Below are positions 4,868 to 30,356 of a stretch of DNA of 64,000 bases, in pieces. Each line of letters begins with the position of its first letter. Position 1 is the stretch's first letter. The stretch lies in NCBI RefSeq assembly GCF_019551435.1, contig NZ_CP080544.1:992001-1056000 (forward strand). The letters are read 5' to 3'. The stretch is from Lysobacter soyae. Lineage in GTDB: Bacteria > Pseudomonadota > Gammaproteobacteria > Xanthomonadales > Xanthomonadaceae. Made by a program: the position numbers and the translations under genes. The notes under the pieces were generated by a model, which was given only the letters and a program-made list of their open reading frames with translations, ran no database searches and was not told the origin of the DNA.

Positions 4868-4877
4868 AGTCACCGAA

Positions 4878-5702: not shown

Positions 5703-5753
5703 ACCCTTCAATCCGGATTGATGACGAGTCGCGCATCGCGGCTCCAGACACGC

Positions 5754-6386: not shown

Positions 6387-6420
6387 TCCCGCATTCCGAC
6401 AGCTCCCAAGGATTTCACGT

Positions 6421-7608
6421 ATGACAGCTCGTTCCACCTTGTTCAAGACCACACTGTTGATTGCCGGCGTCGCGTCATTGGCCGGTTGTGCTTCGGTCAA
6501 GAACATGTTCGGCAGCAGCTCCGCGCGCGCTGACAAAAAAGCCAGCAAGCCTGCAGAATTGGTGAAGTTCAAACCCTCCGCCAATTTTTCCAAAGTCTGG
6601 TCGATCAATGTGGGTAAGGGCGGCGAACGCGCCGGCCTGAGCCAAGTCCCCGCCGTTGCCGATGGCCATGTGTATGCAGCTGCCGTATCGGGCGGTGTGC
6701 AGGCTTACGATCTCGCGACCGGCAAACAGATTTGGAAATACGATTCGAAGGCGCGTTTGTCGGGCGGTCCGGGCGCAGGTCAAGGTCTGGTCGTGGTCGG
6801 TGGATTGGACGGTGAAGTCATCGCACTCGACGCCGCCACCGGCGCAGAGAAATGGACAGCCAAAGTCATCAACGAAGTCATCACCGCGCCGGCGATCGGC
6901 AACGGGGTGGTCGTGGTGCGCTCCAACGACGGTCGTCTGACCGCGTTCGATATGAACACCGGTGAGCGTCGCTGGAACTGGTCAGCTGAACCGGTCGCGC
7001 TTTCGGTGCGCGGTAACAGCGCGCCGCTGATGGGCCCTGGCGCAGTCTTTACCGGCACCGACAGCGGCAAGTTGGTTGCGCTGGGTGCTGCCGATGGCGG
7101 ACAAGGTTGGGAAGCCACGGTTGCCGATCCTGACGGTCGCAATGAATTGCAACGCATGGTCGACGTCGACGGCACGCCCGTGCTCGAAGGTTCGGTCCTT
7201 TACGCCAGCAGCTACAAAGGACGTACGGTGGCGGTTGACGGCCCGAGCGGTCAAATCATGTGGGCACAAGAACACGGTGGCGCCGGCGGCGTTGGCGTCG
7301 GTGCGACCGCACTGGTGGTGAGCGACGCAAAGGATGTTGTTTGGGCGCTCGACAAGAGCACCGGCGCACCGATGTGGTCGTATCCGGAACTGGCACGTCG
7401 CAGCATCTCGGCCCCGGCCGTGCTCGGCGACTATGCCGTGGTCGGCGACTATGACGGCTACCTGCATTGGTTCCGTATGAGCGATGGCCAGTTGGTCAAT
7501 CGTCTGCGCTTTGGCGGCGGTCCGATCCGCAGCCAACCGGTGGTCGCCAACGACATGGTCATTGTCCAGAACTCGGGCGGTGAGATTGCCGCTTTCCGCG
7601 CGAACTAA
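6421..7608 (+). CDS. bamB: Outer membrane protein assembly factor BamB
   Basis: Lipoprotein of the BAM complex that helps fold beta-barrel proteins into the outer membrane. The ATG at 6421 has an AAGGA site upstream. The lipobox SLAGC places the lipid on Cys23. The 395 residues then form PQQ-like beta-propeller blades, visible as repeated patterns such as VYAAAVSGGVQAYDLATGKQ and VVVVRSNDGRLTAFDMNTGE. It is followed by der after three bases, as in most gammaproteobacteria. Confidence 0.95.
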   Translation: MTARSTLFKTTLLIAGVASLAGCASVKNMFGSSSARADKKASKPAELVKFKPSANFSKVWSINVGKGGERAGLSQVPAVADGHVYAAAVSGGVQAYDLATGKQIWKYDSKARLSGGPGAGQGLVVVGGLDGEVIALDAATGAEKWTAKVINEVITAPAIGNGVVVVRSNDGRLTAFDMNTGERRWNWSAEPVALSVRGNSAPLMGPGAVFTGTDSGKLVALGAADGGQGWEATVADPDGRNELQRMVDVDGTPVLEGSVLYASSYKGRTVAVDGPSGQIMWAQEHGGAGGVGVGATALVVSDAKDVVWALDKSTGAPMWSYPELARRSISAPAVLGDYAVVGDYDGYLHWFRMSDGQLVNRLRFGGGPIRSQPVVANDMVIVQNSGGEIAAFRAN

Positions 7609-7611
7609 GTC

Positions 7612-9015
7612 ATGTTGCCGACGTTAGCGCTTGTTGGCCGCCCCAACGTCGGCAAATCCACGCTCTTCAATGGCCTCACGCGCACGCGTGACGCCCTGGT
7701 GCATGACGAACCCGGGGTGACCCGGGATCGTAATTACGGCGTCTGCCGTCTGGACGAAGATCGGCCGTTTGTCGTCATCGACACTGGCGGTATTGCCGGC
7801 GAAGACGAAGGTTTGGCCGGCGCCACCGCGAAGCAATCGCGTGCCGCAGCCGAAGAGGCCGATCTCATCTGTTTCGTGGTCGATGGCCGGGATGGTCCGA
7901 CCGCTTTGGACGATGAAATCCTGCGCTGGCTACGCAAACTCGCACGACCCACCTTGTTGGTCGTCAACAAAGTGGATGGCATCGACACCGAAGCCGCGAT
8001 CAACGAATTCGTGCGATTCGGTTTCAAGGAAGTCATTCCCACGGCGGCCTCGCACCGCTCGGGCATTGATGATTTGCTCGACGCCGTGCTGCCCAAATTG
8101 CCTGAGCAAGGGCAGGGCGAAGAACTCGACGATGATCCGGAGCGCGTACGCATTGCGTTTATCGGCCGCCCCAATGTCGGCAAGTCCACCGTGGTCAACC
8201 GGATTCTCGGCGAAGAGCGCATGATCGCCTCCGATGTGCCTGGCACCACGCGCGATTCGATCTCCGTCGATCTGGAACGCGATGGCCGCAAGTATCGATT
8301 GATTGACACCGCCGGATTGCGTCGCCGTTCGAAAGTGGATGAAGCGGTCGAGAAGTTCTCGGTCGTGAAAACGCTGCAAGCGATCGAGCAATGCCAAGTC
8401 GCCGTGCTGATGCTCGATGCCACCGAAGGCGTGACCGACCAGGATGCGACGGTTCTGTCTGCGGTCCTCGATGCGGGACGCGCCTTGGTGATTGCGATCA
8501 ACAAGTGGGACGGTCTGGAAAAATACCAGCGCGAACAAGCGGAGACGATGTTGTCCCGCAAGCTCGGCTTTGTCGATTGGGCACAGGCGGTGCGGATTTC
8601 TGCCTTGCATGGCTCGGGTTTGCGGGAGCTTTTCCGCGCTATCCACCGTGCCCACGCATCGGCGACGCGCGAATTCGGTACCAGCGAAGTCACGCGCGCG
8701 GTTGAAGCGGCCTATACCGCCAATCCGCCGCCGGTGATTCGCGGTCATGTCGCCAAAATGCGTTTCGCCCATGCGGGAGGCAGCAATCCACCGACCTTCA
8801 TCGTGCATGGCACGCGTTTGCGTACCTTGTCGGAAACGTATCGCCGCTATTTGGAAAATTTCTTCCGCAAGCGATTCAAGTTGGTTGGCACGCCTGTGCG
8901 TTTTGTGTTCCGCGAAAGCGACAACCCGTTCAAAGACAAAGTCAACGTTTTGACCGACAAGCAAAAGGCCAAGCGCCAACGCATGATCCGGCACCACAAG
9001 CGCAACGACAAATAA
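7612..9015 (+). CDS. der: Ribosome biogenesis GTPase Der (EngA)
   Basis: Essential GTPase for 50S subunit assembly. The 467 residues contain two tandem GTPase domains, each with the same P-loop GRPNVGKST (residues 9-17 and 185-193), DTAG/DTGG switch II motifs and NKVD/NKWD specificity motifs, followed by the C-terminal KH-like domain ending in a basic tail ([16 protein letters not shown]). The tandem domains are diagnostic. Its stop is three bases from the start of the next gene. Confidence 0.97.
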
Positions 9016-9018
9016 GCC

Positions 9019-10095
9019 ATGGACAAGCACTCGCTTTCACCCCGCGAGGCGATTGAAAAAATGCGTGCGGGCATGCGCTTGCTGGACATTCGCGGTGAGA
9101 TAGAACGATTGTCGGGCATGGCCGAAGGCGCCACCGCTCTCGTCATGGATGATTTGCTCGCGGCGCCGGACACGCATCTTGGCGATGCGCCGGTGATGTT
9201 GATTTGCCAGAAGGGTATTCGGTCTGCAAACGCCGCGGCGCAATTGCGCGATGCCGGATTCAACGCGCTGTCGGTGGACGGCGGCACCGAAGCCTGGATC
9301 GCCGCGAATCTGCCAATCACATCCTCGGCGCTGGACGATTCCACGGGCGATCCGCATTTTGCCGAACGCTACTCAAGGCAAATGCGTCTGCCCCAAGTCG
9401 GTATGGAAGGGCAGCGCAAACTCAGCAACGCCCGCGTCGTCATTGTTGGTGCGGGTGGCTTGGGCGCACCGTCCAGTTACTATCTTGCGGCCGCGGGTGT
9501 GGGCCACCTCAGTTTGGTGGATCACGACGTCGTCGATCGAAGCAATCTGCAACGCCAAATCGTGCACGTGGACGCCGACGTGGGCCGGAAGAAAGTCGCT
9601 TCCGCACGCGAGCGATTGATGGCGTTGAATCCTCAGATCTCAATCGAGACACATGACCTGGCATTGGACATGGGAAATGCGGCGACGTTGATTGCGGGGG
9701 CCGATGTCGTGCTCGATGGCTCTGACAATTTCGCGGTCCGTCATGCATTGAACGCCGCATCTGTCGCGGCGCGCATTCCGTTGGTTTACGGTGCCGTCGA
9801 TCGTTTTACCGGCCATGCCAGCGTCTTCAACGCGGGTGCGCGCGGCGCAGTACCTTGTTATCGCTGCTTGTTCCCCGATGCCCCGGAAGGCGTGCTGAAC
9901 TGCGCGGAAGCCGGCGTTCTGGGTGTCGTTCCCGGCATCGTAGGTATGATTCAGGCGACCGAAGTCTTGAAGCTATTGCTCGGCATCGGCGACACCTTGA
10001 GTGGCACTCTGCTGCAGTTCAACGCCTTGGACATGCAGTTCAAACGCAGCAAGATTGTTCCGGATCCGGCCTGTCGCGCCTGCGGCAAAGCGTGA
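9019..10095 (+). CDS. moeB: MoeB-type adenylyltransferase with N-terminal rhodanese domain
   Basis: Adenylates the C-terminal glycine of a MoaD/ThiS-like sulphur carrier for molybdopterin or related sulphur transfer. Residues 1-100 form a rhodanese domain with the active loop CQKGIR (Cys63 to Arg68). Residues 115-358 form the ThiF/MoeB fold with the ATP-binding [10 protein letters not shown] and the Arg-rich RSNLQRQ. Two zinc pairs, CYRC (280/283) and CRAC (352/355), complete a four-cysteine site. The domain order is the reverse of eukaryotic MOCS3, which has rhodanese last. No moaD or moaE gene is nearby, so the exact carrier is unknown. Confidence 0.9.
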
Positions 10096-12714: not shown

Positions 12715-14289
12715 ATGACTGATATTCATAACGACAAAATTTTGATCCTCGACTTCGGCGCTCAATACACGCAGCTCATTGCGCGTCGTATTCGCGAGAT
12801 CGGCGTGTATTGCGAAATCTGGGCGTGGGACCACAGCCCGGAAGAGATTGCCGCATTCGGTGCGAAGGGCATCATTTTGTCGGGTGGTCCGGAATCCACG
12901 ACAGAGGCCGGTTGCCCGACCGCGCCGCAGGCCGTCTTCGATGCGAACTTGCCGATACTCGGCATTTGCTACGGCATGCAAACGCTGGCGAAGCAACTCG
13001 GCGGTGACACCGAGGCAGGCAACCAGCGCGAGTTCGGTCATGCCGCGCTTGAGATCGTTGCGGAAGACAATTTGCTGTCGAAAGTCGCGACCTCTGACGC
13101 GCTGCGAAACGTGTGGATGAGCCACGGTGATCACGTCTCCAAAGCGCCGGAAGGATTCGACATCACCGCGAAAACAGATCGTCTCGGCATCGCGGCGTTT
13201 GCCAACGATGCGCGCAAAATTTACGGCGTTCAATTCCATCCGGAAGTGACCCATACCGCGGCCGGCGAAGCCTTGTTGCGCCGCTTCGTGGTGGACATTT
13301 GCGGCTGCGACACGCTGTGGACCGCAGACAACATCATCGAAGATCAGATCGCCCGCGTGCGCGCGCAAGTGGGCAGCGACGAAGTCATCTTGGGTCTCTC
13401 GGGCGGCGTCGATTCTTCGGTGGTCGCGGCGTTGTTGCATCGCGCGATCGGCGACCAGCTGACCTGCGTCTTCGTTGACACCGGCTTGTTGCGCTACAAA
13501 GAAGGCGACCAGGTCATGGCCATGTTTGCCGATGAAGCCGAGAAGGGCGGCATGGGCATTAAGGTGATTCGCGTCAACGCTGCCGATCGCTACTTTGAAA
13601 AACTCAAAGGTGTGGAAGACCCGGAAGCCAAGCGCAAGATCATCGGCAATCTGTTCATCGATATTTTTGATGAAGAGTCCAACAAGCTGTCGAATGCGAA
13701 ATGGCTGGCTCAAGGCACCATTTATCCGGACGTGATTGAATCCGCCGGCAGCAAAACCGGCAAGGCCCATGTGATCAAGAGTCACCACAACGTGGGTGGC
13801 CTGCCTGAAGACATGAAACTCGGCTTGGTAGAGCCCTTGCGCGAACTGTTCAAAGACGAGGTGCGCCGTTTGGGCGTGGCCTTGGGCTTGCCGCGCGAGA
13901 TGGTTTACCGCCATCCGTTCCCGGGCCCGGGCTTGGGCGTTCGCATTTTGGGTGAGGTCAAGCGGGAATACGCGGAGCTGCTGGCCCAAGCCGATGCGAT
14001 CTTCATCGACGAGCTGCGCAAGGCCGATTTGTACGACAAAACCAGTCAAGCATTCGCTGTCTTCCTGCCGGTGAAGTCAGTGGGCGTGGTTGGCGATGCG
14101 CGCGCCTACGAGTGGGTGATCGCGCTACGCGCCGTGGAAACCATCGATTTCATGACCGCGCACTGGGCACATTTGCCGTATGAATTCCTGGGTCGTGTCA
14201 GCAATCGCATCATCAATGAGCTGCGCGGCGTCAGCCGGGTGGTGTACGACATCAGTGGCAAGCCGCCGGCGACGATCGAGTGGGAGTGA
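12715..14289 (+). CDS. guaA: GMP synthase (glutamine-hydrolysing)
   Basis: Converts XMP to GMP using ATP and ammonia from glutamine. The N-terminal class I amidotransferase has the nucleophile Cys85 in GICYGMQ and the FHPEVTHT histidine/glutamate. The ATP pyrophosphatase domain has the P-loop SGGVDSS (229-235), and the C-terminal dimerisation domain ends PPATIEWE, the canonical terminus. I use the ATG at 12715; a TTG at 12709 adds two residues. It pairs with guaB upstream. Confidence 0.97.
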
Positions 14290-19050: not shown

Positions 19051-19887
19051 GTGCCACCGAGCCGGCTACAATTGCCCGTCGGTCCTTGGGCCACGCTCAT
19101 TGAAGGATTGTGCGCACGATTTCCGAGGATTTCGGAAGAGACATGGCGCTCTCGATTTGCACGGGGCTTGGTGACCGACGCAAACGGCAATAACTTGACG
19201 CCGGAAACCCCGTATCGCGTCGGTTTGGAAGTGCGCTACTTCCGCGAAGTGGCATCGGAGCCGGTGATTCCTTTCACCGAATCCATCGTCTACCAGGATG
19301 CGCATTTGGTCGTTGCATACAAGCCGCATTTCTTGCCAGTCATGCCGTCAGGGCGATTTGTGCGCGAGACCTTGCTGACGCGCTTGATTGAGAGATTGGG
19401 AAATCCCGATTTGGTGCCTTTGCATCGAATCGACAGGGAGACGGCCGGATTGGTGATGTTTTCGGCGAATCCAGACACGCGTGCCGCCTATCAAGCTTTG
19501 TTTCGTGAACGCAGGATTGAGAAGACCTACGAGGCCATTGCGCCGCCTTTAAAGGGGCGTGAGTTTCCGTTTGTCCATCGGACACGGATTGTGCCGGGGG
19601 AGCCTTTCTTCCGAATGCAGGAAGTGCTCGGAGAGCCGAACAGTGAGACAGTGATTGATGTGATTGAGCGTGGCGAGAATTTATGGCTTTACAAACTGAT
19701 GCCGGTGACGGGACGGAAGCATCAGTTGCGGGTGCAGATGGCGGGGTTGGGGGTGGGGATTATGGGGGATTCGATTTACCCCGACGTTCGCGAATCGAGC
19801 GACGGGGATTATTCGAATCCTTTGCAATTGGTTGCTCGACAGTTGAAGTTTAGGGATCCGGAAACGGGGGTGTTGCGCCGGTTATAA
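19051..19887 (+). CDS. RluA-family pseudouridine synthase
   Basis: Isomerises uridine to pseudouridine in rRNA or tRNA. The catalytic motif HRIDRETAG contains the conserved aspartate, and GRKHQLRVQM and GDSIYP follow in the usual order. The 278 residues start at a GTG at 19051. The N-terminal part lacks a clear S4 domain. The target base cannot be told from sequence. The 44 bases after it lead straight into the defence island, so this gene marks the left boundary of the conserved backbone. Confidence 0.88.
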   Translation: MPPSRLQLPVGPWATLIEGLCARFPRISEETWRSRFARGLVTDANGNNLTPETPYRVGLEVRYFREVASEPVIPFTESIVYQDAHLVVAYKPHFLPVMPSGRFVRETLLTRLIERLGNPDLVPLHRIDRETAGLVMFSANPDTRAAYQALFRERRIEKTYEAIAPPLKGREFPFVHRTRIVPGEPFFRMQEVLGEPNSETVIDVIERGENLWLYKLMPVTGRKHQLRVQMAGLGVGIMGDSIYPDVRESSDGDYSNPLQLVARQLKFRDPETGVLRRL

Positions 19888-19931
19888 TGAATACGTTCGA
19901 GACGCTGTTCCTCTTTTCCAACCCGGGGACA

Positions 19932-20654
19932 CTATTTTGGCACTAACGAACTTAAGAAGAAGTCCATTTCTTCTTCGTCAAACATCTCGAGGACCAAGCC
20001 TGCACCATACAAGTTTAGGCGTTTCATGAACTCGCGAAACAGATTCTCATTGCGGCGAAGTCCCTGATTTATCTCGAGAGTCCGAATGATCGCGCGCGTG
20101 ACAGGCATTCGAGCTCCGAGCGCAGGTCGTTCGACCAAGCTGCTTCTTATGTCCGATCGAGACAAGATCATTCGGAGCGCGCGCTCCGGATCTTCTGGAA
20201 GGGCACCTTTTGCGATGTAATGATTCCACCACAATCGAGAGATTGCATGGTCGTCACGGCATGCCGTCAAGCCATTGGCGAAGAAATGTTTAGAGACAGA
20301 TCGCTCAACCTGTAAATCGCTCTGACCGGCCTTGAGCCAGCGCTTGCGCGCGAACTCGAGGCCATCGGTATGCGTCAACCGTGTCCACAGCCGTGCTTCT
20401 CGAGCCAATACCGGCGTCAAAGATGCAAATGCCTGTCCGACAATCATGGAATTAGTAATCTCGCTTTCCGGAGAGCCGGATGGATCCAATTGCGAGAGCG
20501 CCGCAAGGTTTGCTTGAACCGGCAACGTGTATCGCCATTCTCCAGTGGCTTCCAAATCATGAAAGCTTCCGGATCGATACCTTTCAATATTCATCCCTAT
20601 GGATTCTTTGAGGTCGTCCGCGACAGATTGGCTGACATAAAGCAGGTTCTGCAT
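19932..20654 (-). CDS. Unassigned protein, third gene of the GHKL-ATPase set
   Basis: A 240-residue, mostly helical protein of unknown function. It contains ISRLWWNHYIAKGA in the middle, a pattern I associate tentatively with DUF6339-like proteins, and a charged C-terminus (FDEEEMDFFLSSLVPK). The start is the ATG at 20654, which has AAGGAG five bases upstream inside the preceding gene; a GTG at 20660 overlaps that gene's stop. The tight spacing shows it is translated with the GHKL ATPase and the 272-residue protein, so the three probably form one machine. Confidence 0.75.
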   Translation of the reverse strand: MQNLLYVSQSVADDLKESIGMNIERYRSGSFHDLEATGEWRYTLPVQANLAALSQLDPSGSPESEITNSMIVGQAFASLTPVLAREARLWTRLTHTDGLEFARKRWLKAGQSDLQVERSVSKHFFANGLTACRDDHAISRLWWNHYIAKGALPEDPERALRMILSRSDIRSSLVERPALGARMPVTRAIIRTLEINQGLRRNENLFREFMKRLNLYGAGLVLEMFDEEEMDFFLSSLVPK

Positions 20655-20656
20655 GT

Positions 20657-21475
20657 TCACTCCTTGGCGAATACTTGTTGCAAGGCACCCATTGGCATAC
20701 CGAGCAGCTTTTGTGCGGCGATCAAGGGGTTCTCCTGCGGGGTCAAGCCAAGCGCGTTCAAGCGTTCGATGAGCGCGCTATGCCAGCGCCGATCCGCGTA
20801 GGCTCCGTCCTTCATCTCAACCAGAACGCCGATAAGTGCCGGCAAGTAGAGTGACGAAAGCAATACGTCTCTCTTGGCAGTTCCACGGGTGATTGCAAAA
20901 AAGTCGAATAGCGGCTTGCGCACATGTATGCCGATGCATTCCGAGTCGAGTTCAAGGTCGAACGCGTCAACCGGTGCGAATTCGTTTTCCACCAGGCGAA
21001 AGATGGACTCCAAGGGTGCGAGAGTCTTGAGTCCGACATAGAACTTGTATTCACCGGAAAGTCCGACAACATCAGCCTTCGCTATCGACAGCGAACGTGA
21101 AGGAAATTCCGCGCTAACCGCTTTGGATTCGATGGTGAACGACTTTGCCTGAGCCGCGATGACAGCCCGAAGTGTGACCAAGCCAAGGAGTTTTCCGTCG
21201 GGGATTCGAATTTCGAACGGCGACCCTCCAACCGGGAACGCTCCGTCGAAATAAGTGTTCAAGCATTGCAACAACAGAACCACTTTGAGTGCCCCGGAAG
21301 AAAGTGCGACCTTCGTGGTTTCTTCTCTTACCTCAAAGTCACCTTGAATAAGGACGTCGCCGTTGCCGCATTCAGTTACCTTGGTGACGCGAAAATCGAA
21401 GCTGCCGCCATGGAAGTCGTCATTCTCAGAAGAAAGCACCGGATGTGCGAATAGAACATTCCTCTTCAATCGCAT
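20657..21475 (-). CDS. Unassigned beta-rich protein, second gene of the GHKL-ATPase set
   Basis: A 272-residue protein I cannot place. The first 110 residues look beta-rich (FDFRVTKVTECGNGDVLIQG) and the C-terminal third is helical (RWHSALIERLNALGLTPQEN). There are no catalytic motifs that I can see, so it is more likely structural or a nucleic-acid/protein adaptor. The ATG at 21475 begins one base after the stop of the ATPase gene, and the downstream gene overlaps its end, showing one operon. Confidence 0.75.
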   Translation of the reverse strand: MRLKRNVLFAHPVLSSENDDFHGGSFDFRVTKVTECGNGDVLIQGDFEVREETTKVALSSGALKVVLLLQCLNTYFDGAFPVGGSPFEIRIPDGKLLGLVTLRAVIAAQAKSFTIESKAVSAEFPSRSLSIAKADVVGLSGEYKFYVGLKTLAPLESIFRLVENEFAPVDAFDLELDSECIGIHVRKPLFDFFAITRGTAKRDVLLSSLYLPALIGVLVEMKDGAYADRRWHSALIERLNALGLTPQENPLIAAQKLLGMPMGALQQVFAKE

Positions 21476-21476
21476 C

Positions 21477-23378
21477 TCAGATCTCCGTTACCGCAATCAA
21501 GTCGAAGCTGATCGGTCCGGTGTAAGGTCGGTCAAACTCCACTTCAACCGAAAACCTGACTCCTTTCTTCAATTTGAGCTTCGGAGCCTTTATGCATTCG
21601 ATGCCGCCGAACTTCGCCAATGACAAAGGTTCTTCTCCTGATACCCCCGGAGAATAAATTTCCAACGCGGCTAAACCGTCTCTGTCCGGAGTAAATGCGA
21701 TAAAACGCGTTCTGTCCGTTCCGGCCTCCGCCAATGCAGTTCTCGCACTCGAATAGGGAATTGCGCGGCCACCACGTCCTCCGATTGATCCCTTGCCCTG
21801 TCCTTTCCTTTCGCCCGAAGTGGTGCCGCCACTCTGGTCGTTTTTCCGCTTACCGCCCGCTGATCCGCTGTCGCCATCAGTACCTCGGCCGGTTTTGGGA
21901 GGATTTGTCTGATCAGGTCCTCGGACTACAATCTCCACAGGGTTGCGTTCGGCATCGCCGTCATCTTTTGTCTTCTCCGGATCCCCCGGTGCGGCAAAGA
22001 ATTCATTGAGCTCATCCAATGAAATTATTGTCTCGGATTGGGATGTCGTAGATGACTTGATCGTGTCTCGTATCCACGATGCCAAGGTTTTCATCTCTGA
22101 TCGGATCTTTTTTTGGCGCGCCGGATCATCGATTCTCTCCACCGAGATTTCATCGTGACGCGGGCTTTCCATCTCTCTGATCACAGAGCTGGCTTGTTTG
22201 CTTGCGGGTTCCACTACACAAATGAAGTCCCGACACATGGAGAATCTGGAAAAAGACTGACCGAAGGACTTCAAATTGTCTGCGATCACCATTCCGTTTC
22301 TGAGGATTCCGACCTTTCGCGGCAACCCTTCTTCTTGGAGGATTCTGAGTTCGATTTCTCCGATCGTGGGAAAGGTCCGGGTATGCAGTTCCGTCTGGCC
22401 AGATTGAAGTGCGGCAAACATCGATGCGCCGTATTGAAGGTCTTCGAGGAAGCCATTGTCGTCCGCGGCGGCTTGCACTTGAGGGGATGCGAATAAGTCT
22501 GCAAGGGATGACTTGTCTATACGTACCGACTCATTCGGTCCCCAAGATACTGAAAACCGAATTGCTTCACGATGTATCGCCGCGAAAAAACTGGTTGTGA
22601 TGGAGGCAATCATTTGCCATTGCCAGTCTTTTGCTTCTTTGAACCCCAAACAAGCGATCGTGGTTCCGACTTTTTCACGGCGCAGCCATTTGGGCAAGTC
22701 GGAGTGTGTCAAGATTGGTGCGAATTGTTCCTCACCGTAAAAGCCTGTTGCCCGTTTTGGCTTGGCGTCCGCCATGTGCGAAACGAGAATACTCTTTCCT
22801 TGAAAAAGCTCATGCTTAGTCCCGTTCTTTGTGCTTAGGGAAGCGTAGAAGGCGGTGCGGAGGGAGGAATTTGCAAACACCGCATTTTTCCCAATTCCGA
22901 AAGAACCCCCAGCGTCATCGTGGGACTTCTTGCTGACACCTGATGACTTAACCAAAGCATGGAATGCGCCGCCTTCTGAAGCATCGCCGAGTCCAGTCGT
23001 TCCGTAATCTTCGATTAATAGAACCGGAATCGTCTGCGACTCAAGCAGCCGGTATGCGTAATCGAAGAATGTCAGTTCCTTTTTTAGGTTTTTGGATTTG
23101 GCTCTATCCAGGCAAGCCACGATCGATTTCTTGAGTGAGGCGACGCCCGGCACGGACTTGGTTTCTATGTGTTCCAATCGAATCCGAAGCTCCACTGGCT
23201 CGTCCGGCAGATTTTCTTGACGGAAGGCGGCGTCCAAGCTGTTTTGGGCACATTCTCGCGCGAGACTTGAAAACTGCATGCCTCGAAACGTCTCAATGCC
23301 CGCGTGAGCCAGTCCTTCATCCTCCCTGGCATCGTTCGTCAAGAACTCCCATTCAAAACGCTTTGTCGCGGTATTCAC
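21477..23378 (-). CDS. GHKL (MutL/HSP90-type) ATPase of a defence island
   Basis: A 633-residue ATPase. The Bergerat fold motifs are clear: the N-box RECAQNSLDA (41-50, with Glu42 and Asn46), LIEDYGTTGLG (Asp124, Gly126) and the lid GGSFGIGKNAVF (157-168). A Gly/Lys/Arg-rich low-complexity linker at about 470-530 leads to a C-terminal beta domain. There is no histidine-kinase phosphoacceptor or receiver, so it is not a sensor kinase. I start at the GTG at 23378, nine bases after GGGGAGG; a TTG at 23396 is less likely. MutL-like and MORC-like GHKL ATPases are known companions of restriction-modification genes, and this one is divergent from such a set. Confidence 0.85.
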   Translation of the reverse strand: MNTATKRFEWEFLTNDAREDEGLAHAGIETFRGMQFSSLARECAQNSLDAAFRQENLPDEPVELRIRLEHIETKSVPGVASLKKSIVACLDRAKSKNLKKELTFFDYAYRLLESQTIPVLLIEDYGTTGLGDASEGGAFHALVKSSGVSKKSHDDAGGSFGIGKNAVFANSSLRTAFYASLSTKNGTKHELFQGKSILVSHMADAKPKRATGFYGEEQFAPILTHSDLPKWLRREKVGTTIACLGFKEAKDWQWQMIASITTSFFAAIHREAIRFSVSWGPNESVRIDKSSLADLFASPQVQAAADDNGFLEDLQYGASMFAALQSGQTELHTRTFPTIGEIELRILQEEGLPRKVGILRNGMVIADNLKSFGQSFSRFSMCRDFICVVEPASKQASSVIREMESPRHDEISVERIDDPARQKKIRSEMKTLASWIRDTIKSSTTSQSETIISLDELNEFFAAPGDPEKTKDDGDAERNPVEIVVRGPDQTNPPKTGRGTDGDSGSAGGKRKNDQSGGTTSGERKGQGKGSIGGRGGRAIPYSSARTALAEAGTDRTRFIAFTPDRDGLAALEIYSPGVSGEEPLSLAKFGGIECIKAPKLKLKKGVRFSVEVEFDRPYTGPISFDLIAVTEI

Positions 23379-23540
23379 GCCTGCAGGCCTCCCCAATTCA
23401 AATCTACCAACTCTTCTTTATATGAGGATCGTGCGCTGTCGTCATCGCGAAGATTTCTTGAATTGGCTCTGATCTCGCGTAGTGAGACGATGGGAAAATA
23501 GATTTGTTGCTCGAATGTGCGAGAAAGACTGATCCTCTAT

Positions 23541-23569
23541 TTGACCCGGCGACTCCCGCCTGGTAGGCT
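23541..23569 (+). promoter_or_regulatory. Promoter of the methyltransferase operon with overlapping inverted repeat
   Basis: TTGACC (23541-23546) and TAGGCT (23564-23569) are spaced by 17 bases. The inverted repeat GCCTGGTAGGC (23558-23568) covers the -10 box. Because the methyltransferase has an N-terminal helix-turn-helix, autorepression at this site is a reasonable inference. Confidence 0.5.
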
Positions 23570-23598
23570 CGTGCATTGTCTTCGGAGTCACCGGTAAT

Positions 23599-24813
23599 AT
23601 GCGGAATAAAGAAGTTGTCGAACTCAGGGGCTTAGTCGGAGTCTCGCAGAGCGAGTTGGCACGAAAAGTCGGTGTTTCAGATGGGCGCGTCGTTCGAGCA
23701 TGGGAGCGTGGTGAGAGGTTCCCATCCCGCGAGAGCGCTGAGGCTTTGCTTGCAGCCAGCAAGGCGCAACCTTTCAGGGACAAGCGGAAAGAACATAAAT
23801 TCCGATTTGTTGACTTGTTTGCCGGAATTGGTGGAATTCGCCTGCCTTTTCAGAAGCTGGGGGGACAGTGCGTTTTTACATCTGAATGGGACAAGTTCGC
23901 TCAGAAGACCTATGCGGCCAATTTTGGCGAGATTCCGTCGGGTGACATCACCGCAATCGCCGCCGCTGATGTTCCTGATCATGATGTCTTGTTAGCCGGT
24001 TTTCCGTGTCAGGCCTTCTCGCAAGCAGGTCTGAGGCAAGGTTTTTCGGACACCCGCGGAACCATGTTTTTCGAAATTCAGAGGATTCTTGCTGAGAAGC
24101 GGCCCGCCGCATTCTTGCTGGAGAACGTGAGACAGTTGCAGGGGCACGACAAAGGCAGAACTTTGAAGACGATCTTGGACGTCCTTGAGGGTCGCTCTAG
24201 CGCTGACATACCTGATGACGTCCCAATGTCCATCGCAGCACGGAAGAGTCTTTCAAGAAAATTGGACTATGAAGTCGTCCCCTTGGTTTTGAACGCTAGG
24301 GATTTCGGAGTGCCGCAGAATCGGATTCGCATCTACCTCGTTGGATTCGATCGCAAACGATTCCCTGATTTTGACAGAGATGCCTTCACGACATCAATCA
24401 AGAGAGAGCCGAAGAAGTTTCTGGGTGAGGTACTCGAGGAAAATTCAACGGTTGACGAAAAGTACACACTTTCTCAGAAATTGTTCTCCGGACACGAGAG
24501 GCGAAAACAAGAACACTTGTTGAAGGGCAATGGGTTCGGTTTCAGTCTCTTCTCCAACAAGAGTGAATATTGCAACACGATTAGCGCAAGGTATTACAAA
24601 GATGGAAGCGAGATCCTCATAGATCAGTCGGATATCGGGCGCCTGCCGCGTAAATTGACACCGCGCGAGTGCGCGCGTATTCAAGGGTTTCCGGAAGAAT
24701 TTGAGTTGGTCTGTTCTGATAATCAGACCTACAAGCAATTTGGAAACTCCGTCAGTGTTCCAGTGATTCAAGCCATCGCCAAGCAAATGATCAGGATTTT
24801 ATTGAAGCAATAG
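23599..24813 (+). CDS. C5-cytosine DNA methyltransferase with N-terminal HTH
   Basis: Protects host DNA by 5-methylcytosine formation. Residues 8-50 form an XRE-like helix-turn-helix (VSQSELARKVGVSDGRVVRA). Methylase motifs follow in the usual order: I (FVDLFAGIGGIRL, 70-82), IV with catalytic Cys137 (GFPCQAFSQAG), VI (ENV, 175-177), VIII (QNRIR, 240-244) and X (QFGNSVSVPVI). The target-recognition region lies between about 265 and 350; its specificity cannot be read. The HTH suggests it represses its own promoter as in M.SsoII-type enzymes. It opens a tight operon with the restriction genes and Vsr. Codon usage appears AT-richer than the surrounding genes. Confidence 0.93.
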   Translation: MRNKEVVELRGLVGVSQSELARKVGVSDGRVVRAWERGERFPSRESAEALLAASKAQPFRDKRKEHKFRFVDLFAGIGGIRLPFQKLGGQCVFTSEWDKFAQKTYAANFGEIPSGDITAIAAADVPDHDVLLAGFPCQAFSQAGLRQGFSDTRGTMFFEIQRILAEKRPAAFLLENVRQLQGHDKGRTLKTILDVLEGRSSADIPDDVPMSIAARKSLSRKLDYEVVPLVLNARDFGVPQNRIRIYLVGFDRKRFPDFDRDAFTTSIKREPKKFLGEVLEENSTVDEKYTLSQKLFSGHERRKQEHLLKGNGFGFSLFSNKSEYCNTISARYYKDGSEILIDQSDIGRLPRKLTPRECARIQGFPEEFELVCSDNQTYKQFGNSVSVPVIQAIAKQMIRILLKQ

Positions 24814-24860
24814 CGTGGAATTGAAGTAACTTTCTTTCGTCATTTGACAAGGGGTGGGAA

Positions 24861-26228
24861 GTGACAATTGGTTTTCTTGAGCTGGCGACATCATACGAAT
24901 CAAAAATGGGACTTTCTGTTCCTGAAACTCGAAGTGTTGTAGATATTGTCAATTCGACAGGAAATAGATTTACTCTCTCCGTTTCGGATTTGATTCTGGC
25001 GTTGGAGGATCTGCTCGATAAAAATGATCGTTTTTTGGAAGCAGGCGAACAATACAACGAAACTAGATGGCGTGAAGCCTCAAAGACTCTGTTCCGTTCT
25101 GACGCTGTCAAGACGCTTGCAAGCACCCAGACGAAGGCGTTTTTCACCGTGCTTTCGAGGTTGGTAAGCGCGGCAAGAAAAATGTCTGAGAGGGATTTCG
25201 ATGAGAATCGCCTGGACTTGGGACGAACTTCATTGAAGTTGACGCTGGAAGCATTTGGCGAAGCTACGCATAACAATTCATCTGTTCCATACAAGGTTGC
25301 GACGAATAGGGCCCCAACACCAGCAATGAAGGGTGAAAATATCCTTTTGTATGGGGCGCCAGGAACAGGTAAAAGCAAGGCGGCGAACGATGACGCTTTG
25401 CTGCGGACCGCAGGCAAGAGCGAACTGGTATTCAGGACGGTCTTCCATGGGGACACTATGCAGGGTGATTTTATTGGTGCAATACGACCGAAGTTGGATG
25501 GTGCATCCGTCAGCTACGGATTTGCGCCAGGCCCTTTTTCGCGGGCATTGAAAGCAGCGGTCGCCAATCCTTCAGAGCATGTGGTACTAATTATCGAGGA
25601 GCTGAATCGAGCGAATGCGGCAGCGGCGTTCGGTGAGGTGTTTCAACTGTTGGACCGTGATGAGTTCGGCGCAAGCTGTTATGAAGTTCATCCAGAGAAT
25701 GAAGAGCTTTCGATATATGTTTATGGATCGGAAGGCGAGAAAAAAAATGCTTCCCAAGCCACAATCTACATTCCTTCGAATTTGTCACTTATTGCGACAA
25801 TGAATTCCGCCGACCAAGGCGTAAAGTCGATCGATATGGCGTTTAGGCGGCGTTGGAAGGCGATCTACCAGCGTTTGGACGTGTCACGCGCTTCTGATGT
25901 CTTCGTGTGGTTGGATCCGACACTTCAAATGTCTTGGCGGGATTTTCTGGGTGCTCTGAACGACTACTTGGTTTCTGAGTTTGCGACGGAGGAAGACCGA
26001 CTCATAGGTCAGTATTTTGCATCCGAAACGGATCTCGCAGATGGCCGAATTCCTGACAAATTGCTGCTTTACTTGTGGGATGACTTGCTGAGAGGCGAAG
26101 ATAGGAGTGCACTATTTTCAGGGAATCTCAGGACGTATGCCCATCTTCAGGCAGAGGCACATGATCGCGGGACATATTTCTCAGAGGGTTTTCTGACGAT
26201 TGCTTCTCAGTGGACACGTCAAGGATGA
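24861..26228 (+). CDS. McrB-like AAA+ NTPase (restriction motor subunit)
   Basis: NTP-driven motor partner of the following nuclease. In 455 residues: an uncharacterised N-terminal domain (1-155), Walker A GAPGTGKS (165-172), Walker B LIIEELNRAN (243-252), the McrB-type sensor ATMNSADQ (312-319; classical McrB has MNTAD) and the arginine-rich FRRRW. The start is the GTG at 24861 behind AAGGGG. The N-terminus lacks a recognisable EVE/DUF3578 domain, so the DNA-recognition step may be in the partner. The same gene pair is known from LlaJI and BsuMI restriction systems. Confidence 0.88.
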   Translation: MTIGFLELATSYESKMGLSVPETRSVVDIVNSTGNRFTLSVSDLILALEDLLDKNDRFLEAGEQYNETRWREASKTLFRSDAVKTLASTQTKAFFTVLSRLVSAARKMSERDFDENRLDLGRTSLKLTLEAFGEATHNNSSVPYKVATNRAPTPAMKGENILLYGAPGTGKSKAANDDALLRTAGKSELVFRTVFHGDTMQGDFIGAIRPKLDGASVSYGFAPGPFSRALKAAVANPSEHVVLIIEELNRANAAAAFGEVFQLLDRDEFGASCYEVHPENEELSIYVYGSEGEKKNASQATIYIPSNLSLIATMNSADQGVKSIDMAFRRRWKAIYQRLDVSRASDVFVWLDPTLQMSWRDFLGALNDYLVSEFATEEDRLIGQYFASETDLADGRIPDKLLLYLWDDLLRGEDRSALFSGNLRTYAHLQAEAHDRGTYFSEGFLTIASQWTRQG

Positions 26229-27505
26229 GGCACGCAATTCTCAATGACCGAGTTTTAGTTTCGGAAGTTGAGAGGCAATCTCCGGAACTTGTTGATCGTC
26301 TGAGGCGTCTTGGCGCGATACCCGCTGGTGCCAGAACGGTTCAGTTTTCCGGATTGATTCAAGATGAATTTGGCAATACAACTGTGTTTCTCCCTTTGAA
26401 AGCCGGCCTGAATTGTCCGGAAGATCAGCGGTTCGAGAAAGCCAGGTGCCTCATGCGGGTGTTGGCAAAATTCGGTTCTAGGAATGAACGTGCCGGTACT
26501 GCCCTGGAGATTGATGGTTCAGTTTCTCTCGCTCATACGATCATGGAGTTGCTTAAGGATTACAAGCGCTGGGGAATCTTCAGGGACTCGGTCACTCGCA
26601 ATTCAAGGAATGTGGGAAAAGCTGACTGGAAAGCGACCTCCAATCGCGTTGCTCCCAATTTCCAAGCGGATGGAATCCCTCATTTTGATGAAATACGCAC
26701 CCGGTTGCTCGACACCGACACAGAGAATCCGTTGAGCATTATTCATGCGGCGGTGATTCGAGAAGTTCAAAAAAATCATATCTGGTGGATTCCACCGTCT
26801 AACACGGTTGACAAGTCAATCAGACGCTTGGATTTGCTTGGCCAGAGAAAGGAGGCATTGGTCAAGAGGTTAAAAAGTCTTTCCAAGGACATGTTTGCAA
26901 GTCGTGACCTTGCTCTAGTGCGGTTGCTTTGCGCCTATTTGACGCAAACGGGGTCAGAACGTGATGGCGCCTTGACTATCGGAGTTCGGGATTTTCACAC
27001 TGTTTGGGAGGTGATGCTTCGCGAAACTACTAAAGGGGTGGAGCAGGGCTGGAACCGGCGTTTGCCATTGCCCACGTACATTGCGCGTAGCGGAGCTAAC
27101 GTCGTAGCCTCGGGGATGTTGCCTGACATCGTGGTGAGAAGGAATTCAACCTTTGTAATTGTCGACGCCAAGTACTATGCGGCTGAAGGCGCATTTTCCG
27201 TTCCCGCGTTGGGCGATGCTTTGAAACAGGTGTGCTACCGGATGGCGATGAGCCACATCGTTGTCGGAAGTCGTGTCGACACTTGTTTCTTATTTCCTTC
27301 GGCTTCCGGCACGGAAGGTCGATTTGAGTATTTGAAGTTCATTGCTCGTGAAACCAGTTCTGAGGCAACCGATTTCGGAGAGATCCGTTGTCTTTATGTT
27401 GATATAGACCGTGTCATGGAAGCATATTCCTCGAATCGCAAGATCGATCCGCTTTCGAAGTGGAATTCCAAGTCCGAGGAAGGCGGCACGCTCATCCTTA
27501 ATTGA
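26225..27505 (+). CDS. LlaJI/McrC-like restriction endonuclease subunit
   Basis: Nuclease subunit of the restriction system. In 426 residues, the PD-(D/E)XK motif is PD (300-301) with VDAK (Asp314, Lys316), preceded by FHTVWEVML containing Glu262 and followed by KQVCYRM (Gln335, Tyr338). This layout matches LlaJI-type McrC relatives. The ATG at 26225 overlaps the McrB-like stop as ATGA, indicating translational coupling and fixed stoichiometry; a GTG at 26210 is the alternative start. The N-terminal half (1-250) probably recognises DNA or binds the AAA+ ring. Confidence 0.85.
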   Translation: MRHAILNDRVLVSEVERQSPELVDRLRRLGAIPAGARTVQFSGLIQDEFGNTTVFLPLKAGLNCPEDQRFEKARCLMRVLAKFGSRNERAGTALEIDGSVSLAHTIMELLKDYKRWGIFRDSVTRNSRNVGKADWKATSNRVAPNFQADGIPHFDEIRTRLLDTDTENPLSIIHAAVIREVQKNHIWWIPPSNTVDKSIRRLDLLGQRKEALVKRLKSLSKDMFASRDLALVRLLCAYLTQTGSERDGALTIGVRDFHTVWEVMLRETTKGVEQGWNRRLPLPTYIARSGANVVASGMLPDIVVRRNSTFVIVDAKYYAAEGAFSVPALGDALKQVCYRMAMSHIVVGSRVDTCFLFPSASGTEGRFEYLKFIARETSSEATDFGEIRCLYVDIDRVMEAYSSNRKIDPLSKWNSKSEEGGTLILN

Positions 27506-27969
27506 GTGATCGAATTGTGGATATTTTTTCACGCGAAAAGCGATCACATGTGATGGCACAGATTCGTGGGCGGGATACGAAACCGGAGTTGCTTCTCCGT
27601 CGCTCATTGTGGGCAATCGGTTTCCGATATTCATTACACCGCAAAGGATTGCCTGGGCGGCCTGATTTGGTTCTCACCAAATGGAATGCCGTAATTTTTG
27701 TCCACGGTTGCTTTTGGCACGCACATGAGAATTGCGCTGGATTCAGATTGCCGAAGTCGCGTGTTGAGTTCTGGCAAGAGAAACTGGACGGAAATCGCAC
27801 GAGGGACGAACAAAGTGCATTGGCTTTGGTTGAGGGAGGTTGGTCCGTTGCCGTTGTTTGGGAGTGCGCCATTGAAGCGGACGTGGAGAAGGTGTCGGAA
27901 ATTCTTTCAAAGTGGTTGCGTGCGACCAAGAGGGTCAATATCTTGGAGGTTCGGTCATCCACGTCCTGA
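27502..27969 (+). CDS. vsr: Very short patch repair endonuclease (Vsr)
   Basis: Nicks next to T in T:G mismatches arising from 5-methylcytosine deamination. The 155 residues carry DTKPELLLRRSL, GRPDLV with the catalytic Asp55, and VHGCFWHAHENC with His68 and His73, equivalent to Asp51, His64 and His69 of E. coli Vsr. It starts with TTG at 27502 overlapping the nuclease stop; a GTG at 27517 is possible. Its place in the methyltransferase operon suggests it repairs the mutation load caused by that enzyme. Confidence 0.93.
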   Translation: MSDRIVDIFSREKRSHVMAQIRGRDTKPELLLRRSLWAIGFRYSLHRKGLPGRPDLVLTKWNAVIFVHGCFWHAHENCAGFRLPKSRVEFWQEKLDGNRTRDEQSALALVEGGWSVAVVWECAIEADVEKVSEILSKWLRATKRVNILEVRSSTS

Positions 27970-28034
27970 TATAGGCGCGCTTCTTTCGAGAATCGAAACT
28001 TCGCATGACCACACAACTACCTCACAAGTTCTCA

Positions 28035-28955
28035 TCAAGCCGCAATCCGATGCTCATAGTACGGATGCCGTTTGTCATCAAAGATCGCGTAAAGAGCCTC
28101 AAGATTCGCCGGGTCAGGATTTAGCCACGCGTCAACGTGCTCGGGCTTGATATTGATAATCGTCCTGTCGTGGCCGGCGGCAGCGACTTCGGGCTCGGGC
28201 TCGTCCGTAATCGCGGCAAAAGAAAGTAAGTCGGGTTCTATCCCCTTCGGGTCTGTCCAACGCGACCAAAGACACGCAATCAACATCGGCTCGCCATCTC
28301 TCGGTTCGAATTCAAGCACGACGTTTTTGCAGTCAATCTCCACGTTTTCATAGAATTTGTCGGCGATGATCAGCGCGTGCGTGTAGCCGAATTGTTGCCG
28401 CCAGAATCCTTCCAGGCTGTCCCGGCGAGCGTTGTAGGTTCCGGGGTAACGTTGGTCGTATGAGGCCGGCTTTCCCGCAAGTCGGCATCCATAGCGCATC
28501 GGTGCGACGAATCGCTTCCCGTTTTCTGCGGCAACCACTGTGCTGAAGATGCCGGGAAAGACGCGTGAATCTTTGGGTTCCAATTTCGACCGCTTCAAGT
28601 CTTTCAAGCGGCTTTCCGCCGCTTTGATTTTGTTGCTTGCAATGCGCTTGTCCTCAAGCGCCTTCTTGGTTTCTTTCGTTTTCAAGGACACCACGGCTTT
28701 ATTCAGGCGCGTTTTCTGTGCAAACAACTCTTGCTCGAATTTCGCAGACTGTTCCTTGTTTAGTGCTTCGATGCCTTGAATAATTTCATTTGCCCATGGC
28801 TCGCTGGAATTCAAGAACGCCTGTCGCATCGCCTTGGGTGTTTTGGCGCTTCGGTCGCTCCAAAACACTTTGGCGAACTCATCGATGCTGATATCAGCAC
28901 CGAATTTGCGGACGTAGTCCTTATAACTTTGCTCGATCTGTGCCGAGTAGCACAT
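28035..28955 (-). CDS. Divergent SRAP (YedK/HMCES-like) protein with inserted coiled coil
   Basis: SRAP proteins cross-link to abasic sites in single-stranded DNA through Cys2 and shield them. The protein begins MCYSAQ with Cys2, and the expected partners are present: YNARRDSL (Asn175), KFYENV (Glu203) and AAGHDRTI (His262), which correspond to Asn75, Glu105 and His160 of E. coli YedK. It has 306 residues instead of about 220, because a charged coiled-coil-like segment (about 60-128) is inserted after the N-terminus. The start is the ATG at 28955 since Cys2 must be exposed. It sits next to the restriction island but may belong to the backbone. Confidence 0.85.
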   Translation of the reverse strand: MCYSAQIEQSYKDYVRKFGADISIDEFAKVFWSDRSAKTPKAMRQAFLNSSEPWANEIIQGIEALNKEQSAKFEQELFAQKTRLNKAVVSLKTKETKKALEDKRIASNKIKAAESRLKDLKRSKLEPKDSRVFPGIFSTVVAAENGKRFVAPMRYGCRLAGKPASYDQRYPGTYNARRDSLEGFWRQQFGYTHALIIADKFYENVEIDCKNVVLEFEPRDGEPMLIACLWSRWTDPKGIEPDLLSFAAITDEPEPEVAAAGHDRTIINIKPEHVDAWLNPDPANLEALYAIFDDKRHPYYEHRIAA

Positions 28956-29071
28956 CGCATCACCTTCGCTGCTTGACATGCAGGCATTGTTGCCCAAATC
29001 CCCGCAGACGTATGAACGCCTGACCAGCCCGGTCGATGCCAAGGCCTAGGGGTTGGCGTCCATTCCTTAAA

Positions 29072-29087
29072 TGTGATAAAGGTCACA
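29072..29087. promoter_or_regulatory. Perfect CRP/Clp-type binding site
   Basis: TGTGATAAAGGTCACA matches the CRP consensus TGTGA-N6-TCACA exactly. In xanthomonads the CRP homologue Clp binds this motif. It lies 36 bases before the DUF418 ATG and 116 bases before the divergent SRAP gene, so either or both could be controlled. Confidence 0.7.
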
Positions 29088-29123
29088 TAATGTAGTTTGG
29101 CGTTTCACGGGCGCAACCGAGCC

Positions 29124-30356
29124 ATGAACCAGATCGATGCCGCAGTGGGTACAAAGACTGGAAGTGCTAATGCCTTGCCGCGAACGCTTCGCGGTGTTCG
29201 CGTCGCAGAGCGCCTCGAGGTGCTCGACGCGCTGCGGGGGTTCGCCCTTTTCGGCATTCTGATGGCGAACATCCAATATTGGGCGGGCTGGATGATGATG
29301 TCGCCCAAGGAGACGGCGCGTTTCCATGATGCGAGCGAACTCCGTGTCATGCGCGGCATCGAGCGCTTCCTGATCGATGGCAAGTTTTACACCCTGTTTT
29401 CGCTGCTTTTCGGCGCAGGCTGCGTGTTAATCATGCTGCGGCTGCAACGCGACGGGCATGCGTGGAAGCGCACCTATTTTCGACGCATGGCGGTGTTGAT
29501 GCTGATCGGCATCGTGCACACCTTGCTGATTTGGGATGGCGATATCTTGCTGCTTTATGCGGTGCTTGGTTTCACTTTGCCGTGGTTTGCGGAACGCGCC
29601 GACCGTACCTTGCTGGTAGCGGCATTTCTGTTGATATTCGTCGTGCCCTTCCTTGGCAAGGCGGTATTTGCGGCGATGGGCTGGGCACCCGCAGATTACC
29701 TGTTGGACGGGTCCTTGAAATGGCTCGAATCCCAGGGCGGCCCTCAGTTCGGTGGGGAAGTGGCGTGGTTGCAATCCACGAACCTTGCCGAGTATCCGAA
29801 GTGGACGTTGTCTGGCACCGTCTATTCGCTCGGACTGCGGCTGGACAGCTGGAGAATTCCAAAGGTGCTGGGAATCATGATTCTCGGCCTGTGGTGCGGG
29901 CGAAAAATCCCCGATGGTTTGCTGACGGATCGCGCCTTCTTGAAGCGGGTATTGGCATTGGGCGCGTTGATCGGCGTGCCGGCCACCGCCTTTTATGCCT
30001 CGCGCAAAGGCGTCAATCAAAGCGATTGGACCTCGATGATCGGGACGGTTCCATTTGCGCTGGCATATGCGTCGGCGTTTCTGTTGCTTTGGCCGACGGC
30101 GAAGCGGGTTCTCGGAGTACTGGTTGCCCCCGGTCGCATGCCGCTCACGAACTACTTGATGCAGTCGGTGGTCAATGGTGTGGTGTTTTTCGGATTCGGT
30201 CTGGGGTGGATGGGCACGCTGTCGATGGGGCAAACGTATGCTTGGGCGTTGGCCTTGTTCTCGGTGCAGGTGCTCGTGTCACATCTGTGGTTGATAAGAT
30301 TTGAGCATGGGCCGGTGGAGGCGTTTTGGCGGCGGCTGACCTACGCTTCGCGCTGA
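29124..30356 (+). CDS. DUF418 family membrane protein
   Basis: A 410-residue polytopic membrane protein. RLEVLDALRGFALFGILMAN at the N-terminus and PGRMPLTNYLMQS near the C-terminus are the marks of the DUF418/YeiB family, with about ten membrane helices between. The function of the family is unknown; the acyltransferase-like LDALRGFA start has been noted. I place the start at the ATG at 29124. A perfect CRP-type site stands just upstream, which suggests cAMP or c-di-GMP responsive control if Clp is the regulator. Confidence 0.88.
   Translation: MNQIDAAVGTKTGSANALPRTLRGVRVAERLEVLDALRGFALFGILMANIQYWAGWMMMSPKETARFHDASELRVMRGIERFLIDGKFYTLFSLLFGAGCVLIMLRLQRDGHAWKRTYFRRMAVLMLIGIVHTLLIWDGDILLLYAVLGFTLPWFAERADRTLLVAAFLLIFVVPFLGKAVFAAMGWAPADYLLDGSLKWLESQGGPQFGGEVAWLQSTNLAEYPKWTLSGTVYSLGLRLDSWRIPKVLGIMILGLWCGRKIPDGLLTDRAFLKRVLALGALIGVPATAFYASRKGVNQSDWTSMIGTVPFALAYASAFLLLWPTAKRVLGVLVAPGRMPLTNYLMQSVVNGVVFFGFGLGWMGTLSMGQTYAWALALFSVQVLVSHLWLIRFEHGPVEAFWRRLTYASR

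Follow-up and report, generated by a model that had tools for sequence, protein, structure and literature searches.

The question raised by this locus is what three tightly packed genes are doing beside a restriction operon in Lysobacter soyae: whether they assist the restriction enzymes, help the mismatch endonuclease encoded with them, or make up a defence system of their own. The genes, here named A, B and C, lie within a 64,000-nucleotide stretch of contig NZ_CP080544.1 (positions 992,001 to 1,056,000), referred to below as the window. A survey of relatives revealed that A, B and C diverge together while their restriction partners are exchanged, and the explanation that we prefer, tentatively and at not far short of an even chance, is that they constitute a single accessory machine for defence, which associates with C5-methylating restriction systems and works as an ATP-gated DNA clamp or sensor. 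The three genes, with PADLOC and Pfam matches and their expectation values (E), are:

21477..23396, minus strand: gene A, putative GHKL-type ATPase, PDC-M33A, 639 amino acids (aa) from a TTG start (PADLOC PDLC04582, E 1.9e-101)
20657..21475, minus strand: gene B, PDC-M33B, 272 aa (PADLOC PDLC04583, E 1.2e-29)
19932..20660, minus strand: gene C, DUF6339 protein, PDC-M33C, 242 aa from a GTG start (Pfam PF19866, E 2.9e-39; PADLOC PDLC04586, E 3.4e-26)

A preliminary description of the window had proposed a three-gene GHKL ATPase system at this place, and the frames and the motifs are indeed present. Relatives were collected in 88 loci, namely the window, 80 loci from genome contigs (the best 80 of 273 confirmed, a choice biased towards relatives near the query) and seven from plasmid and phage collections (taken from 6 of 23 matching plasmid records and the single matching phage record). 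Frames called in these by a simple longest-open-reading-frame method matched A in 87 loci, B in 83 and C in 77. Since the order A-B-C and the tight spacing recur in most relatives, the arrangement is not due to chance, and the trio is confirmed as a gene set. The one-base gap described between A and B is there (position 21476); the overlap described for B and C holds, at 4 bases, if C begins at its GTG codon, but gives way to a 2-base gap if it begins at an in-frame ATG two codons further in (240 aa). Gene A also has an alternative GTG start at 23378 (21477-23378, 633 aa).

The adjacent genes fit all three subunit profiles of PDC-M33, which is a catalogued, unvalidated phage-defence candidate of PADLOC. 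Pfam recognises only C among the trio proteins, and neither an NCBIfam scan of A, B and C nor a sequence search for solved relatives of any of them gave a credible match. The earlier statement that B and C are unassigned is partly outdated, as both match PDC-M33 and C is a DUF6339 protein. In the open-licence literature, no publication on DUF6339 was found.

The motifs of A, together with one profile-profile alignment, identify it as a probable GHKL-type ATPase with moderate profile support. N-box, G1 and G2 are the names of the GHKL ATP-site motifs, and A carries all three intact, as RExxQNSxDA, DYxTxGL and GGSFGIGK, the G1 being unlike the classical DxGxG. Among 67 A relatives (67 of 76 full-length rows, including the window, near-duplicates and other rows having been dropped by hand), residues D130, T133, G135, K170, E410 and H414 were invariant, while E48, N52 and D55 were nearly so; E48 (E42 in the 633-aa numbering) was acidic in 99%, and the ExxxH motif formed by E410 and H414 was invariant in 67 of 67. 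A glycine-rich linker follows at about residues 490-555, and then a short C-terminal domain. In hhalign, the A profile aligned over the ATPase module with a mixed set of 30 MutL-, HtpG- and MORC-like GHKL proteins, which had been clustered by similarity and named on inspection (profile columns 9-443, E 1.2e-4, probability 55%). A Pfam scan of the window A protein gave no match, and HATPase_c_3 was detected in just 1 of the 67 relatives (E 0.026).

Which modification genes accompany the trio was determined with six-frame profiles. Across the 88 loci these found A in 88, B in 84 and C in 82, a Dcm-like C5-methyltransferase in 75, the mismatch endonuclease Vsr in 52, and a small protein of about 75 residues, here called s, in 39; some of the absences are contig ends, and the Dcm tally is a raw count. 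Of 90 Dcm matches, 42 were no more than 500 bp from the A-C block and 82 no more than 4 kb. The link to DNA-modification neighbourhoods that had been proposed is supported, the trio being strongly tied to such genes; homologues lying mostly apart from them, the outcome that would have spoken against it, is not what the survey found. The nucleases in attendance were diverse. An EcoRII-type cluster was present in 20 of the 88 loci (one member identified by Pfam), AlwI, MutH/Sau3AI and MmeI-like enzymes stood beside plasmid copies, LlaJI in the window, and further neighbours included AspBHI-like, Mrr, MvaI/BcnI and HNH nucleases as well as a PADLOC type II enzyme in locus L062. The neighbour tally covered 180 proteins close to the block; of its 140 and 102 families, the first 25 in each case were read. 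Six of ten neighbouring genes scanned had no match at E 0.01.

The divergence of the genes from locus to locus separates the trio from its partners. Pairwise divergence gave Spearman correlations of 0.79 for A and B (80 loci), 0.86 for A and C (73) and 0.77 for B and C (73), while the values with A were 0.21 for Dcm (69 loci), 0.30 for Vsr (40) and 0.64 for s (35). Because A, B and C diverge together while Dcm and Vsr follow A weakly, the three are read as one evolving module that swaps its restriction partners. A quick tree built from 84 A proteins shows at least 11 changes in the presence of the EcoRII-type cluster, where shuffling gave a mean of 16.6, and 11 in that of Vsr, where the shuffled mean was 26.1.

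The preliminary description had gone further, coupling the trio to Vsr and to mismatch sensing. In 48 of 75 trio loci, Vsr was no more than 1.5 kb away from the nearest Dcm, compared to 7 of 30 control loci around a Dcm gene (Fisher p 2e-4), an enrichment that is suggestive, since the rows share ancestry and the control set-up slightly favours the trio; the control consisted of 30 well-scoring loci from one phylum, drawn from 80 genomes that had Dcm matches among 150, and each extends 1.5 kb beyond the Dcm match, a limit at which a Vsr can be truncated. In the 46-row clade that includes the window, 41 rows had Vsr in the locus. The enrichment favours the idea that the trio is a MutL substitute in very-short-patch repair, its ATPase helping Vsr to mend the T:G mismatches that arise when 5-methylcytosine (5mC) made by the restriction system is deaminated. 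MutL has an ATPase-linker-C-domain layout, which A shares, and A likewise is a GHKL-type ATPase near Vsr, but MutL homology of A was rejected, as no MutL profile or C-terminal MutL domain matched in Pfam or NCBIfam, and B and C matched no MutS or MutH family in either library. Contact between MutL and Vsr in E. coli and N. gonorrhoeae is cited in excerpts of PMC12907096, but the same excerpts report a Caulobacter two-hybrid assay in which VsrA contacted neither MutL nor MutS.

The distribution of Vsr tells against such a repair role, and it does not bear out the coupling in the form proposed. Dcm was directly upstream of A in 17 of the 84 tree rows, with Vsr in 4 of these and none in the stretch examined in the other 13; outside the window clade, Vsr was absent from 8 of 8 Dcm-A-B-C rows in the groups L063, L086, L080, L081, L062, L056, L060 and L050, some of whose contigs are short upstream. 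Seven mostly Gram-positive trios formed a group without Dcm in the stretches examined, several of which were short, and trio genomes without any C5-methyltransferase match exist. As whole groups of trios are without Vsr, it is not an obligatory partner, and, with its weak co-divergence with A, a MutL substitute seems an improbable description of the trio.

In general, GHKL proteins form dimers that close on ATP, and they shift either DNA or a protein partner. If A does the same, it would dimerise and close to form a clamp on DNA, with B and C as adaptors that would bind DNA or protein and time the closure; the clamp might then mark DNA of the wrong methylation state or integrity, and recruit or license the nuclease of the nearby restriction system. 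Licensing of a partner's nuclease is favoured because no nuclease was recognised in the trio, C5 partners are frequent, and there is little loyalty to any one of them. The complex itself, its binding to DNA, its trigger and its role in defence are what we infer. MORC-like ATPases control the silencing of methylated DNA in eukaryotes, and bacterial MORC relatives have been tied to restriction since 2008, with no tested mechanism found in the open-licence literature. A compact trio of constant identity, whose methyltransferase, Vsr and nuclease change around it, lends itself to asking in what way a GHKL clamp might read or exploit DNA modification.

The association of bacterial GHKL proteins with restriction was published by Iyer, Abhiman and Aravind in 2008 (PMC2292703, in excerpt), who suggested that restriction-linked GHKL families loop the DNA between a recognition site and a cleavage site. 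Their paraMORC2 group resembles A in its GHKL motifs, conserved ExxxH, and neighbourhoods with cytosine methylases and Vsr. It differs in the stress laid there on superfamily II helicases, cyanobacteria and Gram-positives, whereas the window cassette is without a significant helicase family (Pfam, eight window proteins scanned), and the excerpted text gives no description of B or C. Another GHKL protein, VcSduA (GHKL-Shedu, paraMORC3), requires its ATPase for anti-phage activity, according to excerpts of PMC12137116; it is comparable as a GHKL ATPase in anti-phage defence, a role presumed for the trio, but it has its own PD-(D/E)XK nuclease domain, and none was found in A using Pfam, PADLOC and NCBIfam. 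Three results are new, as far as the open-licence literature shows: the analysis of partner exchange, the outcome that no fold match turned up for C, and the pairing of s with GHKL genes (see below).

Confident AlphaFold2 models were obtained for B and C. In Foldseek, neither had a fold match at E ≤ 0.001. The AlphaFold2 model of B (predicted local distance difference test, pLDDT, 92.1; predicted template modelling score, pTM, 0.66) has a beta-sandwich-like front of roughly 185 residues and a helical remainder, so that its earlier description as beta-rich applies to the former and not to the latter. Fibronectin-III and cytokine-receptor domains made up most of its Foldseek list, many at probability 0.9-1.0; with a best E of 1.8e-3 against PDB and a whole-query template modelling score of about 0.26, this kinship was not accepted, and the front is taken as a probable generic beta sandwich. 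Conserved polar residues in B are few (D20, C71, T74, E123, S157, R230, W231 and Q255), with no obvious nuclease site among them. The model of C (pLDDT 95.7, pTM 0.92) is mostly helical, as had been described, and had no credible match, its best values being E 2.6 against PDB and E 2.2 against BFVD, and so C may have a new fold, judged against solved and viral predicted structures. Its conserved residues include an invariant acidic position at E67, H97 in 98% of rows, and invariant R107 and R142. The alignments used 67 of 72 full-length rows for B and 58 of 61 for C, including the window, the rest having been removed by hand.

Across from gene A in the window lies a restriction cassette of the LlaJI kind:

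23397..23598: intergenic region of 202 bp between the trio and the divergent restriction operon, with no s gene inside
23599..24813, plus strand: C5 DNA methyltransferase, Dcm-like, with an N-terminal helix-turn-helix (HTH), 404 aa (PF00145, E 4.3e-97; HTH_3, E 5e-5)
24861..26228, plus strand: McrB-like AAA+ protein, R1.LlaJI-like by position and domain, 455 aa (Pfam AAA_5, E 2.2e-13)
26210..27505, plus strand: LlaJI-type restriction endonuclease subunit, R2-like, 431 aa (PF09563 RE_LlaJI, E 5.3e-30)
27502..27969, plus strand: Vsr mismatch endonuclease, 155 aa (PF03852, E 2e-30; TIGR00632, E 3.4e-39, over its cut-off)

The McrB-like protein also matched PADLOC REase_II (E 1.7e-37) and, under its cut-off, NCBIfam McrB (E 1.5e-16). 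The McrB-like R1, the RE_LlaJI-type R2 and the C5 methylation are those of LlaJI, but LlaJI is, in excerpts of PMC1459862, a set of four genes with two C5-methyltransferases, whereas the window has a single HTH-methyltransferase, a Vsr and the divergent trio; two C5-methyltransferase matches in the window genome proved to be two parts of this one gene. That the trio diverges from the HTH-Dcm gene across 202 bp, and that Dcm directly precedes A in 17 of 84 tree rows, would suit a safety or regulatory device, for example one that restrains the nuclease until methylation is complete, or one that senses under-methylated host DNA. No promoter-like sites were detected in the divergent region, their counts over 19800-29200 were not above those of shuffled sequence, and its repeats are short ones, to which no operator could be assigned. 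With many unrelated nucleases among the partners, and one copy (L190, below) with neither Dcm nor Vsr recognised in 12 kb, a safety device is an explanation to which we give little credence.

The setting of the window locus looks like a defence hotspot, because GC content is low (0.47-0.54 across 20001-29000 versus 0.54-0.63 around it), the PDC-M33A profile, which matches in the window's genome, had no match at E 1e-5 in 12 congeneric genomes, and one congener carries different defence genes in the same slot, between a pseudouridine synthase and a lipoprotein-dnaX pair. These are another C5-methyltransferase (30% identical), a GIY-YIG-like frame and an OLD-like ATPase, the gene names being assigned by eye. 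At the low-GC end of the window island, a SRAP-domain protein with a long N-terminal extension is encoded at 28035-29042, and has no counterpart in the slot of the congener (G408). In the wider phylum, the PDC-M33A profile matched in 9 of 398 genomes, four with the close type and five with the remote type described below.

Several results weigh against an ATP-gated clamp attached to C5-methylating systems. The GHKL assignment of A has its difficulties: its profile gave unconvincing values with six single GHKL groups (E 0.005-0.38) and no match with four MORC proteins alone, and a plain hidden Markov model (HMM) of the mixed set missed the A-type proteins scanned with it. Direct MORC kinship by profile was accordingly rejected, the mixed set alone having aligned over the module. 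The count of C5-methyltransferases is the raw one given above, and 13 of 88 loci, several on short contigs, had none in view (two of these, L012 and L013, have annotated adenine-type DNA methyltransferases). A genome-wide search of 8 of the 13, mostly draft or metagenome assemblies, was positive for a C5-methyltransferase in five and negative in three at E ≤ 1e-10. Locus L190 has an s-A-B-C set (4242-7980) with no Dcm or Vsr recognised in a 12-kb stretch. The restriction partners are also not wholly free, as the A-Dcm correlation was reached by none of 500 permutations, and the A-Vsr correlation by 6 of 500. Protein C could itself be an enzyme, because of its conserved E67, H97, R107 and R142, and in the open-licence literature no publication naming PDC-M33, and no experiment on it, was found.

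Much of this would be accommodated by the main rival, a self-sufficient defence system. Under that explanation the trio is PDC-M33 proper, with its own effector, perhaps C, and it does no more than share islands with restriction systems, possibly using 5mC as a self mark. The three genomes with no C5-methyltransferase match, the L190 copy, the weak correlation of A with Dcm divergence, the hotspot for defence genes, and the conserved polar residues of C all point that way. They are countered by the presence of a C5-methyltransferase in 75 of 88 loci, with 42 of 90 Dcm matches within 500 bp, and by Dcm directly preceding A in 17 of 84 rows. A stand-alone system is a serious contender, about which we are nevertheless rather doubtful, and the accessory clamp is retained as the preferred explanation.

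The small protein s offers a wider view of the ATPase. Its profile had no match in window positions 10001-36000 or elsewhere in the window's genome, and the copies tested had no credible match to Pfam or PADLOC (in PADLOC, two were without a match and a third was at chance level, E 0.001-0.006), which sets s-bearing loci apart from PDC-M33 as catalogued. No report on s was found in the open-licence literature, going by the title or start of the abstract among the matches listed. A search for s alone, at E ≤ 1e-4, took in 398 genomes from the phylum of the window, as many from that of the Heliobacterium genome and 246 from a third phylum (1,042 in all), and gave 8, 4 and 1 matches, respectively, or 13, one of them cut by a contig end. 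In 12 of the 12 that could be evaluated, the gene after s was a GHKL-type ATPase, of four types (in L100, a Vsr frame lies between). Six of these were, by profile, A or its remote relative A'. Of the other six, two were of 607-616 aa, three of 825-852 aa, and one was a fragment of the latter type; they are found directly behind s at the following positions:

L180, 6847-8670
L181, 6796-8646
L182, 8259-10736
L183, 6161-8719
L191, 459-2984
L192, 3-641

By motif, both of these types are GHKL proteins, and the five complete ones align with the mixed GHKL set, at E 5e-5 and 5e-4 and with probabilities of 67% and 32%. They matched no library profile, nor the plain HMM of the mixed set (run on two), and do not align with A itself.

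The remote relatives form five operons (L097-L101) of the same shape as the trio, in which A' is followed by a gene of 253-307 residues and then one of 238-281 residues. Four A' sequences compared with A were homologous over its full length (E 1e-34). A single-sequence comparison, which has low power, showed no homology of the B' and C' proteins of L097 and L098 to B and C. C' of L100 and of L101 matched DUF6339 under the cut-off (E 4e-4 and 0.029), and the other eight B' and C' proteins had no match. These operons had s in three of five, Vsr in four and a Dcm-like match in all five, although the match in L099 was weak and about 6 kb off, and that in L101 was in two short frames. It is possible, if short of what we would call likely, that a whole superfamily of GHKL-type defence ATPases (A, A', and the 607-616 and 825-852 aa types) has s as its common and dedicated partner, whatever the other links of the ATPase. 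If so, the window trio would be a branch lacking s within a general, ATP-gated engine of GHKL defence; s would be a part that can be replaced, acting as loader, inhibitor or sensor, and the C5-restriction partners would be interchangeable outputs. In practice, s is a simple handle for finding GHKL genes that are missed by profile libraries.

Individual loci showed other arrangements of these genes. In L085 (Heliobacterium), whose genome is one of the three without a C5-methyltransferase match, a DndB-family gene (8751-9839) is directly upstream of A, in the usual place of Dcm, and C is followed, at the contig end, by the N-terminal part of a frame related to a ParB-methyltransferase fusion. 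An AspBHI-like restriction enzyme, of a 5mC-dependent family, adjoins the Dcm-A-B-C operon in L060 (5024-6313). On a Cyanobium contig (L031, 2458-12723), two GHKL modules flank one Dcm, with two tandem s genes before the first module. The plasmid trio of L014 is flanked by a HEPN_Swt1-DUF3320 protein (7495-8625) and an annotated Shedu nuclease (12742-13887). HATPase_c_3 proteins were also encountered near Dcm genes on six contigs (G011:C3, G007:C41, G058:C1, G043:C779, G038:C56 and G030:C111).

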